Shown one piece after another: positions 7,733-18,913 of a stretch of DNA of 64,000 nt. The notes under the pieces are model-generated. The model had not been told where the DNA came from and did not search any database. It worked only from the letters and a program-made list of their open reading frames with translations. Where the stretch lies: positions 1,674,001 to 1,738,000 of the forward strand of contig NZ_CP126970.1 in assembly GCF_030252185.1 (NCBI RefSeq). Direction: 5' to 3'. The stretch's first letter is position 1. Each line of letters starts with the position of its first letter. The DNA is from Corynebacterium suedekumii (GTDB taxonomy: Bacteria; Actinomycetota; Actinomycetes; Mycobacteriales; Mycobacteriaceae). The translations under genes and the position numbers were made by a program.

Positions 7733-7809
7733 GCCCCTATAGCCCAATTGGCAGAGGCAGCCGACTTAAAATCGGCACAGTGTCGGTTCGAGTCCGACTG
7801 GGGGCACCA
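7733..7809 (+). tRNA. tRNA-Leu (anticodon UAA) with short variable loop, CCA encoded
   Basis: The cloverleaf can be drawn in full: acceptor GCCCCTA/TGGGGGC (7733-7739, 7799-7805), a D-stem of 3 pairs from 7742, anticodon stem GCCGA/TCGGC (7760-7764, 7772-7776) with loop CTTAAAA, T-stem GTCGG/CCGAC with loop TTCGAGT, discriminator A7806 and encoded CCA (7807-7809). The anticodon is UAA, which reads the leucine codon UUA. Leucine tRNAs are normally class II with a long variable arm, but here only 5 bases (7777-7781) separate anticodon and T stems. Identity as Leu rests on the anticodon and A73 only. Confidence 0.85.
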
Positions 7810-16473: not shown

Positions 16474-16800
16474 GTGCCCGTCGTGTCCATTCCCGTCACT
16501 GACCACCTCCAGACCCTCGCCCTGCATGCGCAGTCGGCGCTGGTGATCGCCCAGCAGCAGCAGGGTGGACCGCTGGGCCCCGAGTTCGGCAAGGCCTCGC
16601 CCATCGGGTTGACCATCCTCGCCGGGATGGGTGTGCTGGTCATCTTCATCGGCTGGTCCCTGGCCCGCCGGTACAGCCGGTACAACCGGCGTCGTGTCTT
16701 CGCCGAGCAGCACGGGCTGGACGTCTTCGACGTCGAGGCCGTGGACCGGGCCATGGCGGAGGCCGGGGTCCTCGACCAGCGGAAGAAACGCTGGTTCTGA
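16474..16800 (+). CDS. Small single-pass membrane protein downstream of mca
   Basis: The product has 108 residues with a Gln-rich N-terminal region, one membrane helix (about 44-64), and a basic cytoplasmic tail with RRYSRYNRRR and VEAVDRAMAEAGVLDQ. A short membrane protein in the same place after mca is found in mycobacteria as I recall; function unknown. GTG 16474 starts 5 bases after mca. The DAHP synthase leader follows. Confidence 0.75.
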   Translation: MPVVSIPVTDHLQTLALHAQSALVIAQQQQGGPLGPEFGKASPIGLTILAGMGVLVIFIGWSLARRYSRYNRRRVFAEQHGLDVFDVEAVDRAMAEAGVLDQRKKRWF

Positions 16801-16814
16801 CCGGAGTCGCGTGG

Positions 16815-16820
16815 TAGCAT
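16815..16820 (+). promoter_or_regulatory. -10 box for a leaderless DAHP synthase leader transcript
   Basis: TAGCAT is followed after 7 bases by ATG 16828. This is the leaderless spacing seen at several genes here, so transcription likely starts at the A of the leader-peptide start codon. Confidence 0.6.
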
Positions 16821-16827
16821 GACCGGC

Positions 16828-16917
16828 ATGTTCGTCCAGCGATTTTATTTTGGTGAGGCTCCGGGGCTGTATCGCAGCCACGACCGCCTCGCCGTTCCGT
16901 ATGCACTGAGGGCATAA
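16828..16917 (+). CDS. Phe/Tyr-rich leader peptide of DAHP synthase
   Basis: This is a 29-codon reading frame ending in TAA. It encodes a Phe-Tyr-Phe cluster at residues 6-8 (MFVQRFYF...) plus Phe2, Tyr15 and Tyr25. Five or more aromatic residues in 29, placed before a transcription terminator and the first enzyme of aromatic amino acid synthesis, fit a classical attenuation leader peptide in which slow decoding of Phe or Tyr codons controls read-through. An in-frame ATG at 16819 would add three residues but lies in the -10 region. Confidence 0.7.
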   Translation: MFVQRFYFGEAPGLYRSHDRLAVPYALRA

Positions 16918-16988
16918 CACGGATCGACGAACACCCCGGAGCCTGAAGCAGCACCTCCCCGAGAAATCGGGTGAGGGGCTGCTTTTTT
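16857..16988 (+). promoter_or_regulatory. Attenuator region with competing stems and a terminal terminator
   Basis: Three pairings can be seen. GGTGAGGC (16852-16859) pairs with GCCTCGCC (16886-16893). GGCTCCGGGG (16857-16866) pairs perfectly with CCCCGGAGCC (16934-16943). The strong terminator stem 16947-16962 / 16967-16982 (GAAA loop) is followed by TTTTTT (16983-16988). The first two share bases and exclude each other, and both lie where a ribosome on the leader peptide would sit. The exact antiterminator is not resolved by eye. Confidence 0.65.
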
Positions 16989-17023
16989 GTTACCCCGAAC
17001 CCGAACCAGAAAGGCCCAGCCCC

Positions 17024-18136
17024 ATGAGCGCCCCCGTCTCCCTCGACAATTCCCCCTCCACCTCCAACCAGCGTGTCCGCGCGTTCCATGACCTGCCCAG
17101 TCCGGCGCAGGTGCAGGCGGAGCAGCCGTTGACACCCGAGCAGCTGGCCGCGGTCGCGCGGGACCGGCAGGACATCGCGGACATCTTCGCCGGTGACGAT
17201 GACCGCCTGGTGGTGGTCGTCGGGCCGTGTTCGATCCATGATCCGGTCGCCGCGGCGGACTACGCCAACCGGCTGGCACCGCTGGCCCGCCGGCTGGATG
17301 AGGATCTCAAGGTGGTGATGCGGGTGTACTTCGAGAAGCCGCGCACCACGGTGGGGTGGAAGGGGCTGATCAACGATCCGCACCTGAACAACACCTTCGA
17401 CGTCGCGCACGGGCTGCAGCTGGCGCGGACGGTGCTCACCGAGGTGGTCAACCTGGGGTTGCCCACGGCGTGTGAGTTCCTCGAGCCGAATTCGCCGCAG
17501 TACTACGCAGATGCGGTGGCGTGGGGTGCCATCGGTGCGCGGACGACGGAGTCGCAGGTGCACCGGCAGCTGGCGTCGGGGATGTCCATGCCCATCGGGT
17601 TCAAGAACGGGACGGACGGCAACATCCAGGTCGCGCTCGACGCGGTGTCGGCGGCGGCGAAGCCGCACTTCTTCTTCGGCACCTCCGATGACGGGCACCC
17701 GGCGGTGGTGGAGACGGCCGGTAACGGCAACTGCCATGTCATCCTGCGTGGGGGAAGTGCGGGCCCGAACTTCGACGCGGAGTCGGTGGGGCGGGTCGTC
17801 GCGAAGCTGGGGGAACGGGGCCAGACGCCGCGGTTGATGATCGACGCCTCCCACGCCAACTCGAACAAGGACCATGTGCGCCAGGCGGAGGTCGTGCGGG
17901 ACGTCGCGACGCAGATCGCGGCGGGCGGGGAGGCGATCGCCGGGGTGATGATGGAGTCCTTCCTCGTCGCCGGCGCGCAGAGCCTGGACCCGGCGAAGTT
18001 GCGGATCAACGGCGGTGAGGGGCTGGTGTACGGGCAGTCGGTGACGGATGCGTGCATGGACGTCGACACCACCGTCGACCTGCTCGCGGAGCTCGCCGCC
18101 GCGGTCCGTGCCCGCCGGGAGGCCGCTGCGGGATAG
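17024..18136 (+). CDS. 3-deoxy-7-phosphoheptulonate synthase, class I (AroF/AroG type)
   Basis: DAHP synthase condenses phosphoenolpyruvate and erythrose 4-phosphate, the entry step of the shikimate pathway. The 370-residue class I enzyme has GPCSIHDP, the KPRTTVGWKGLINDP block, GARTTESQ, IGFKNGTDG, the metal-site segment HFFFGT and LMIDASHANSNK. Class I members are feedback-inhibited by Phe, Tyr or Trp; the leader peptide suggests Phe/Tyr control here. It ends 10 bases before the Z-prenyl synthase gene. Confidence 0.93.
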   Translation: MSAPVSLDNSPSTSNQRVRAFHDLPSPAQVQAEQPLTPEQLAAVARDRQDIADIFAGDDDRLVVVVGPCSIHDPVAAADYANRLAPLARRLDEDLKVVMRVYFEKPRTTVGWKGLINDPHLNNTFDVAHGLQLARTVLTEVVNLGLPTACEFLEPNSPQYYADAVAWGAIGARTTESQVHRQLASGMSMPIGFKNGTDGNIQVALDAVSAAAKPHFFFGTSDDGHPAVVETAGNGNCHVILRGGSAGPNFDAESVGRVVAKLGERGQTPRLMIDASHANSNKDHVRQAEVVRDVATQIAAGGEAIAGVMMESFLVAGAQSLDPAKLRINGGEGLVYGQSVTDACMDVDTTVDLLAELAAAVRARREAAAG

Positions 18137-18146
18137 ACTGTGAGGC

Positions 18147-18913
18147 GTGAAAATGTCGCGCCTTCTCTATCCCCTCTACGAGGCTCGCCTGCTGCGTGAG
18201 CTCAAGGGCCTGCGGCAGCCGAAGCACATCGCCATCATGGCCGACGGCAACCGGCGGTGGGCCCGGGAGGCCGGGCACGCCGACATCAGCCACGGCCACC
18301 GGGTGGGCGCGAAGAAGATCGGTGAGGTCGTCCACTGGTGCGACGAGACCGAGGTGGAGGTCATCACCGTCTACCTGCTGTCCACCGAGAATCTCAGCCG
18401 TGAGGCCGCGGAACTGACCCTGCTGTTCGGCATCATCGGTGACGTGGTCGACGAGCTCTCCGGTGAGGACTACACCTGCCGCGTCCGCCTCGTCGGGCAC
18501 CTGGAGTTGCTGCCGCCGGAGGTGGCCTCCCGCCTGCGGACCTCCGCGGCGCCGACGAGGAGCGCACCGGCATCACCGTCAACATCGCCGTCGGCTACGG
18601 CGGGCGCCAGGAGATCGTCGACGCGGTGCGTGACCTCATCGACGAGGAGATCGCCGCCGGCACCCCGGCCACCGACCTGGCCGCCAAGGTCACCGCCGAC
18701 TCCCTGTCCACCCACCTGTACACCTCGGGCCAGCCGGACCCGGACCTGGTGATCCGCACCTCCGGCGAGCAGCGGCTGTCCGGTTTCCTGCTGTGGCAGG
18801 CCGCCTACTCGGAGATCTGGTTCACCGACACCTACTGGCCCGCCTTCCGCCGCCTCGACCTGCTGCGCGCCCTGCGCGAGTACTCCCGCCGCTCCCGACG
18901 ATTCGGAAAATGA
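18147..18913 (+). pseudogene. uppS: Short-chain Z-isoprenyl diphosphate synthase, frame broken by a 1-base loss
   Basis: The product would be a cis-prenyltransferase that extends (E,E)- or geranyl diphosphate for decaprenyl carriers, like the Z-FPP synthase next to mca in mycobacteria. The first frame gives good similarity to about residue 130 (IAIMADGNRRWAR with catalytic Asp33, LLSTENLSR). From about 18545 similarity continues only in the next frame ([19 protein letters not shown], then [11 protein letters not shown]). One missing base near 18531-18560 explains this; adding one gives about 255 residues, the usual length. It is either a real inactivation or a sequence error. Confidence 0.85.

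Follow-up and report, generated by a model that had tools for sequence, protein, structure and literature searches.

The leader that precedes the DAHP synthase gene aroF of Corynebacterium suedekumii is the ortholog of aroR of C. glutamicum and is as such not new in kind; new here are its homologs elsewhere in the class, in further genera and families, for which Rfam holds no match. We are confident that the element is an attenuator of the aroR kind, controlled by ribosome stalling. Our preferred reading, to which we give a probability of roughly 60%, is that a helix between two distant segments, B and B', acts as the antitermination helix and makes aroF transcription depend on charged tRNA-Phe, with tRNA-Tyr possibly as a second input of the leader.

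The leader was analyzed in a stretch of 64,000 nucleotides of the C. suedekumii chromosome (the window), and its parts are collected in Table 1. A sequence-only reading of this DNA had placed a short frame, a TAGCAT box, two stems and a terminator in front of the gene, and direct reading of the sequence found all of them in place.

Table 1. Parts of the aroF leader locus of C. suedekumii, with their positions in the window
Feature	Position	Strand	Basis
TAGCAT box, followed by seven bases and then ATG (16828-16830)	16815..16820	+	read directly
Leader peptide gene, aroR ortholog, 29 codons and TAA, probably leaderless	16828..16917	+	ortholog frame in 49 of 52 genomes
Segment A TGTTCGTC, takes in part of the start codon; partner A'	16829..16836	+	partial support
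Control codons TTT TAT TTT (Phe6-Tyr7-Phe8), inside the near-invariant CGATTTTATTTT	16843..16851	+	codon counts, 49 leaders
Local hairpin, 5' arm GGTGAGGC, 3 nt overlap with B	16852..16859	+	direct reading
Segment B GGCTCCGGGG	16857..16866	+	covariation
Local hairpin, 3' arm GCCTCGCC	16886..16893	+	direct reading
Segment A' GACGAACA, pairs with A, immediately 5' of B'	16926..16933	+	partial support
Segment B' CCCCGGAGCC, partner of B, abuts the terminator	16934..16943	+	covariation
Intrinsic terminator, GC-rich hairpin and six T	16946..16988	+	direct reading; covarying stem
Type I DAHP synthase gene aroF, the regulated gene	17024..18136	+	Pfam and NCBIfam matches

The frame translates as M F V Q R F Y F G E A P G L Y R S H D R L A V P Y A L R A and ends with TAA at 16915-16917. 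In the window sequence the two arms of the local hairpin pair with each other and B pairs with B', and the two helices are mutually exclusive since 16857-16859 are common to both. The terminator hairpin spans about 16946-16984, with the six T at 16983-16988, and its predicted energy alone is -27.3 kcal/mol. The leader is structured beyond chance: the 203-nt leader RNA folds at -83.4 kcal/mol compared to a shuffled mean of -64.3 (z -5.0), and none of 200 shuffles reached so low an energy. A TANNNT placed exactly 7 nt 5' of an ATG is found for only 8 of the 1647 ATGs on both strands of the window, and a DNA search found the leader once in its own genome. The Rfam covariance models gave no match up to E 1 in the leader region, and ten related loci were without one up to E 0.5. 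The product of the downstream gene, called a DAHP synthase from the first, matches Pfam DAHP_synth_1 and, above the NCBIfam cut-off, TIGR00034 (aroFGH).

Three other features of the window are recorded here. Its only Rfam match at gathering score is a tRNA gene at 7733-7806. An isoprenyl-transferase-like gene, which we take to be UppS-like, lies 3' of aroF at 18147-18913 and is spread over two overlapping plus-strand frames (18147-18752 and 18626-18913), so that its reading frame looks broken, perhaps by a sequencing error or perhaps because it is a pseudogene. On the minus strand, a 409-codon open frame (16646-17875) lies opposite the leader and a large part of aroF and is probably an artefact of high GC content.

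Neshat in 2014 (pmid 24910972) reportedly placed aroR before aroF (cg1129) in C. glutamicum. Leader peptides were described in this species at trpE, leuA, ilvB and aroF, the one at aroF with Phe-Tyr-Phe (Mentz 2013, PMC4046766), and aroR was replaced in an aromatic producer strain (PMC7356990). Gene, F-Y-F motif and attenuator-type leader are thus the same in C. glutamicum and in the window, and the doubt of the sequence-only reading as to whether such a leader had been described is answered by the counterpart reported in PMC4046766. One of the loci that we collected, L096, contains an exact 23-nt match to part of the primer used to delete aroR, which ends one base before the leader ATG (PMC7356990), while the primer stretch at the aroF start has no exact match there; with one stretch exact and the other not, L096 comes from C. 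glutamicum or a near relative. It aligns with the window leader, although the leader is MFVQRFYFGEAPGLYRSHDRLAVPYALRA with the box at 7 nt in the window and MFAARFYFMSGSGAFPRQLAVSRAT with the box at 8 nt in L096.

In order to measure conservation, 201 Corynebacterium genomes were searched; 52 contain a match to the DAHP synthase of the window, the other 149 having no match to this enzyme, and the 330 nt 5' of the enzyme gene were examined in all 52 loci. A frame with the motif R-[FQ]-Y-[FY], which we derived from frames with two adjacent Phe/Tyr and then used for the choice of starts, is present in 49 of the 52, at residues 5-8 and in one case at residues 6-9. The variants at this orthologous place are RFYF (44), RFYY (4) and RQYY (1). 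The 330 nt upstream of the distant DAHP synthases of the three remaining Corynebacterium loci (L131-L133, 54-55% identity) contain no such leader. When TANNNT was searched from 3 to 11 nt before the start codon, its distance was 7 nt in 45 of the 49 leaders, 8 in three and 6 in one. This near-constant spacing fits a transcript beginning at the start codon, and the leader transcript probably has its 5' end on the AUG or one base away from it.

The control codons are conserved down to single bases. The first is TTT in 46 leaders, TTC in two and CAG in one, the second is TAT in all 49, and the third is TTT in 43, TAT in five and TTC in one, with CGA as the preceding Arg codon in 45 of 49. The enzyme gene prefers other synonyms, with TTT and TTC at 30:259 and TAT and TAC at 3:178 in 30 of the 52 loci. 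Codon 2 encodes Phe in 35 leaders and is then always TTC, as pairing between A and A' would require. The length of the leader varies from 13 to 29 codons, the peptide end is not conserved, and a Trp stands 5' of segment B in 16 of the 49. The sequence-only reading had also counted Tyr15 and Tyr25 among the sensing codons. We rejected both, because no other leader of the set of 49 has Tyr at either position. The leader at L117 (genome G014) reads Arg-Gln-Tyr-Tyr and has no Phe before segment B; judged by its codons, it appears to be a natural change of specificity.

As to the proposal that the leader senses both Phe and Tyr, a 2025 review, after Neshat 2014, states for aroR of C. glutamicum that Phe limitation raises aroF transcription (PMC11802643). 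The Tyr half is doubtful, as the same account gives Tyr availability no effect.

Homologous leaders were then sought beyond Corynebacterium. Model R1, built from an alignment of the 49 Corynebacterium leaders (A1) and run on 201 genomes of their own GTDB family, matched 34 genomes in 8 of 31 genera, Corynebacterium included. We read 31 leaders, namely all 29 R1 matches from other genera plus those of a Mycobacterium MAG (L013) and a Mycolicibacterium MAG (L014). The start codon is GTG in 26 and ATG in 5, and TANNNT precedes it by 6 nt in 9, 7 nt in 21 and 8 nt in one; as a box at 5-8 nt was itself required in choosing the starts, what is informative here is how sharply the distance is set. Before an Ala-Pro-Gly stretch (APG) the aromatic residues are Tyr-Trp-Phe in 29 leaders, YYWF in one and WF in one, and the Phe codon is TTT in all 31. 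R1 did not select for this order, since the Corynebacterium leaders on which it was trained do not have it. Nine B:B' pairs are identical in all 31, a uniformity favoured by the pattern used for finding B.

A second model, R2, trained partly on leaders found by R1, was run on 296 genomes of the class and matched 36 of them in 12 of 115 genera: 11 in the own family, 19 in a family designated f21, 4 in a family designated f18, and 2 weak ones (G430 and G478) that we took as chance. A search at the level of the order found the leader before the same enzyme in three genomes of another family, f2. Outside the class nothing convincing was found among 296 genomes, of which five matched, three of them belonging to the own family. 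In 29 further leaders, for which 5-9 nt were allowed in start finding, the box stands at 7 nt in 26, 8 in two and 6 in one. The resulting set of 60 leaders from other genera leaves aside G458, G522, G604, L220, the three f2 leaders and G565 (L216), where the enzyme is present and the B pattern missed the leader.

The aromatic strings differ between families. Outside Corynebacterium the own family has YWF in 38 of 41 leaders, with YYWF, YWFF and WF once each; family f21 has YYF (8), WYF (3), WYWF (2) and YF (2), and family f18 FF (2), YFF (1) and F (1). A type I DAHP synthase gene lies directly 3' of the leader in 56 of the 60, the exceptions being the four f18 leaders. In three of these, at similar loci (L206, L207 and L209), Phe is the only aromatic residue of the leader, and the protein encoded downstream of L206 has a DAHP synthase domain that is partial and closer to a different subtype. 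The fourth, L208 (G609), reads V D R R Y F G F T P P A P ..., with Tyr and Phe and no Trp, and stands before a gene for a type II chorismate mutase, an enzyme of the Phe/Tyr branch. Among 80 other DAHP synthase loci, 13 (L002-L014; E 0.019 for L013) had a match up to E 1, and the remaining 67, including those of Bifidobacterium, Cellulomonas, Arthrobacter and Chloroflexi, had none. Four further candidates were discarded. The weak match in Corynebacterium G006 (E 0.007) has neither B nor B' by pattern and no DAHP synthase in the examined stretch and was ascribed to chance; G917 has no DAHP synthase match in its stretch and no leader, G973 no DAHP synthase match in its stretch, and G742, matched at the order level, neither the enzyme nor a leader.

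The comparison with other corynebacteria that the sequence-only reading had proposed thus yielded the conserved aromatic codons, and it also yielded covarying stems. On A1, RNAalifold predicted B:B' and the terminator stem only, with 16 pairs. We counted covariation on the same alignment with B:B', the terminator and A:A' taken as given, using five measures and 500 shuffles. Paired cells amounted to 92.1% compared to 87.5 in shuffles, cells changed on both sides to 66 compared to 20.6, and the covariation score to 0.223 compared to 0.149; no shuffle came as high on four of the five measures, and 13 of 500 did on the fifth. B:B' is paired in 99.1% of cells, with double changes in 4 of 7 pairs and the compensatory variants GGCTTGCGG/CCGCAAGCC and GGCTTCGGC/GCCGAAGCC in two species each, and the terminator stem is paired in 97.3%, with double changes in 3 of 9 pairs. 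This B:B' covariation and the homologs outside Corynebacterium are absent from the aroR descriptions consulted in PMC4046766.

The other two helices were examined by exchanging partners between species. A:A' is paired in 97.9% of cells at its first two pairs and in 73.6% at the other six (A1). In 44 of 49 leaders segment A does better with its own partner than, on average, with those taken from other species, and p <= 0.05 against shuffles is reached in 18; outside Corynebacterium the signal is weak, the own partner being better in 39 of 60 and p <= 0.05 in 8 of 60. The local hairpin beats swapped partners in 33 of 49, with p <= 0.05 in 21. In the other genera, 30 of 31 leaders have a local partner of 6 bp, G-U included, for the first six bases of B, with a 4-nt loop (GGAGCC in 18, GGGGCC in 9, GGAGTC in 3). 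Because A' adjoins B' in the window, A:A' and B:B' are either exclusive or form a pseudoknot.

Two aspects of the geometry bear on how the switch could work. First, the spacing from the first base of the last codon for an aromatic residue to B is 8 or 9 nt in 48 of the 49 Corynebacterium leaders. In the other genera it is 8 nt in 56 of 60, while their distance from start codon to B varies from 29 to 44 nt. With the former distance nearly fixed and the latter variable, a stalled ribosome would be placed by the codon-to-helix distance. Second, B:B' directly abuts the terminator in 45 of the 49 Corynebacterium leaders, U-tract pairs counted, and in the other genera the gap is none in 11, one base in 10 and two bases in 10 (n=31). 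When folding was computed from the B region on, B:B' and the terminator were predicted together with a mean probability of 0.98 (0.74 for the whole leader); in the other genera B:B' reached 0.99 versus 0.00 for the local hairpin. Since folding favours B:B' with the terminator, the local hairpin could win only by speed or by the position of the ribosome.

A ribosome covers about 15 nt downstream of the first base of its P site. At codon 6 or 7 it would thus reach into the 5' arm of the local hairpin, with B mostly left free, which points to B:B' as the helix of the ON state. With the codons, their spacing, the covariation of B:B' and the terminator and the exclusivity of the two partners of B all read in the sequences, we infer the following order of events. 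A ribosome would load on the bare 5' end and follow RNA polymerase. When Phe-tRNA is plentiful, it would pass codons 6-8 and leave the leader; B would then fold into the local hairpin, A could pair with A', B' would stay free, and the terminator would stop transcription. When Phe-tRNA is scarce, the ribosome would stall on UUU-UAU-UUU and cover A and the 5' arm of the local hairpin, with B largely free ahead of it. B would then pair with B' against the base of the terminator, termination would fail, and aroF would be transcribed. In this scheme the neighbouring helix would block the terminator, with or without the ribosome behind it. Several points stand against it. B:B' as a rule shares no strand with the terminator, so that textbook antitermination is not general, and a stall at codon 2, Phe in 35 of the 49 leaders, would leave the local hairpin free. 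The predicted coexistence of B:B' with the terminator, the gap between them in 20 of 31 leaders of other genera, the modest statistics of A:A' and of the local hairpin, the fifth covariation measure and the missing Tyr effect in C. glutamicum count against it as well. Within these bounds, the sequence-only reading is supported in its central proposal, ribosome-mediated attenuation on a probably leaderless mRNA with Phe-Tyr-Phe as control codons and with mutually exclusive stems. The structure is more than chance (z -5.0, 0/200 shuffles), and the arrangement recurs in 49 of the 52 Corynebacterium genomes with the enzyme.

The main rival keeps the attenuator but assigns B:B' to the OFF state, where it would stack end to end on the terminator and help its formation until a ribosome covers B. 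This agrees with the coexistence of the two helices, which are predicted together and adjoin without a gap in 45 of 49 leaders. A ribosome whose A site holds the last aromatic codon would, at a distance of 8 nt, also be expected to cover the first few bases of B, if the footprint given above applies. The terminator, however, is stable alone (-27.3 kcal/mol in the window), and the local hairpin and A:A' would be left without clear use. As antitermination structures, these two would moreover be favoured once the ribosome is gone, which conflicts with the reported induction by Phe limitation (PMC11802643). We consider this assignment of B:B' unlikely.

The second rival, which we rank slightly lower, is a classical overlapping switch in which an antiterminator takes part of the 5' arm of the terminator. 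It has a precedent in the ilvBNC attenuator of C. glutamicum, which switches via a GCC trinucleotide common to adjacent hairpins (PMC11857589). We searched the 49 leaders for helices with the terminator 5' arm of at least 5 bp and a score of at least 13. The commonest match (nt 35-36) pairs CGGGG at the end of B with CCCCG of the arm and is possible in 13 of 49 leaders, that of the window included; other matches occur in single species and no position is common to more than 13 leaders. As 17 of the 49 have no arm helix of that length and strength, we rejected an overlapping antiterminator as a general rule.

The last two alternatives are both very improbable. In one, the product of the leader is a small protein with a function of its own, and the terminator, a partial one of the ordinary sort, has nothing to do with amino acid sensing, as the conserved N-terminal part might suggest, but the length of 13-29 codons, the peptide end that is not kept, the constrained synonymous choice, the APG stretch spelled by segment B and the aromatic residues kept in another order in other genera all speak against it. 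In the other, a ligand-binding riboswitch or T-box would read tRNA or aromatic compounds without translation; the RNA is structured, a terminator is present and the order A-B-A'-B' could form a pseudoknot, but the region has no Rfam match up to E 1, the start, aromatic codons and stop share one frame in the leaders read, and the distance from the codons to B stays the same where other parts of the leader vary.

We return to the aroR-type attenuator with B:B' as antitermination helix and compare it with known systems. In trpL and pheL of E. coli a ribosome-binding site is present and the antiterminator shares a strand with the terminator. The likeness to these leaders is that stalling at control codons selects between helices and terminator (PMC11802643). 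The ilvBNC attenuator of Corynebacterium is closer, as its leader begins a single base away from the 5' end of the mRNA (PMC11857589, PMC10272879) and its last two hairpins, of an anti-antiterminator, antiterminator and terminator series, are adjacent, as are B:B' and the terminator in the window leader. It differs in sensing branched-chain amino acids and in the GCC shared by its adjacent hairpins (PMC11857589), a shared strand that the Corynebacterium aroF leaders do not have in general. In Acholeplasma, the uORFC-13-1 motif lies upstream of aroF (PMC8632094) and, like the window, combines a Phe-coding upstream ORF and a terminator before a DAHP synthase gene; the likeness is one of description, in another phylum, and its consensus differs by a ribosome-binding site (PMC8632094). 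Other Actinobacteria also have leaderless leader peptides in front of amino acid genes, as reported in Streptomyces lividans (PMC8079986), and Cys-rich leaderless small ORFs in mycobacteria (PMC4633059); they resemble the aroF leader in kind and differ in the amino acids or genes concerned, and among the eight S. lividans leaders named in PMC8079986 none is for Phe or Tyr and none precedes DAHP synthase. Attenuators whose leader peptide is read from an mRNA with no, or almost no, 5' leader are thus not new (ilvBNC, Streptomyces).

Earlier surveys had covered neighbouring ground. Seliverstov 2005 reported no conserved RNA structure before Phe/Tyr operons in the Actinobacteria then studied (PMC1262725), a C. 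diphtheriae transcriptome listed three leader genes, for trp, ilvB and leu (PMC5784534), and a survey of structured RNAs includes a Corynebacterium ilvB motif (PMC11109978). Our searches of openly available full-text papers brought up no Tyr-Trp-Phe leader; subscription papers mostly fall outside such a search, which therefore does not prove absence.

As the window copy is the known attenuator's ortholog, interest lies mainly in the wider family and in the switch geometry. We put at even odds the broader view that the leaders form an old, class-wide family of leaderless attenuators in which a conserved RNA switch is kept, the codons are re-set, and a distal helix blocks an adjacent terminator, as a rule without sharing a strand. 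The re-set codons would be Tyr-Trp-Phe, Phe-Tyr-Phe in Corynebacterium, and Tyr and Phe (with some Trp) or Phe only elsewhere, so that the aromatic codon set changes by lineage at a nearly fixed distance from the same helix. If this is true, Tyr-Trp-Phe, with one codon each, suits an enzyme that serves all three aromatic amino acids, and the helix stops the terminator from next door, not by taking its strand. Two questions are thereby opened to reporter tests: can a single leader sense three amino acids, and can an adjacent helix block a terminator?
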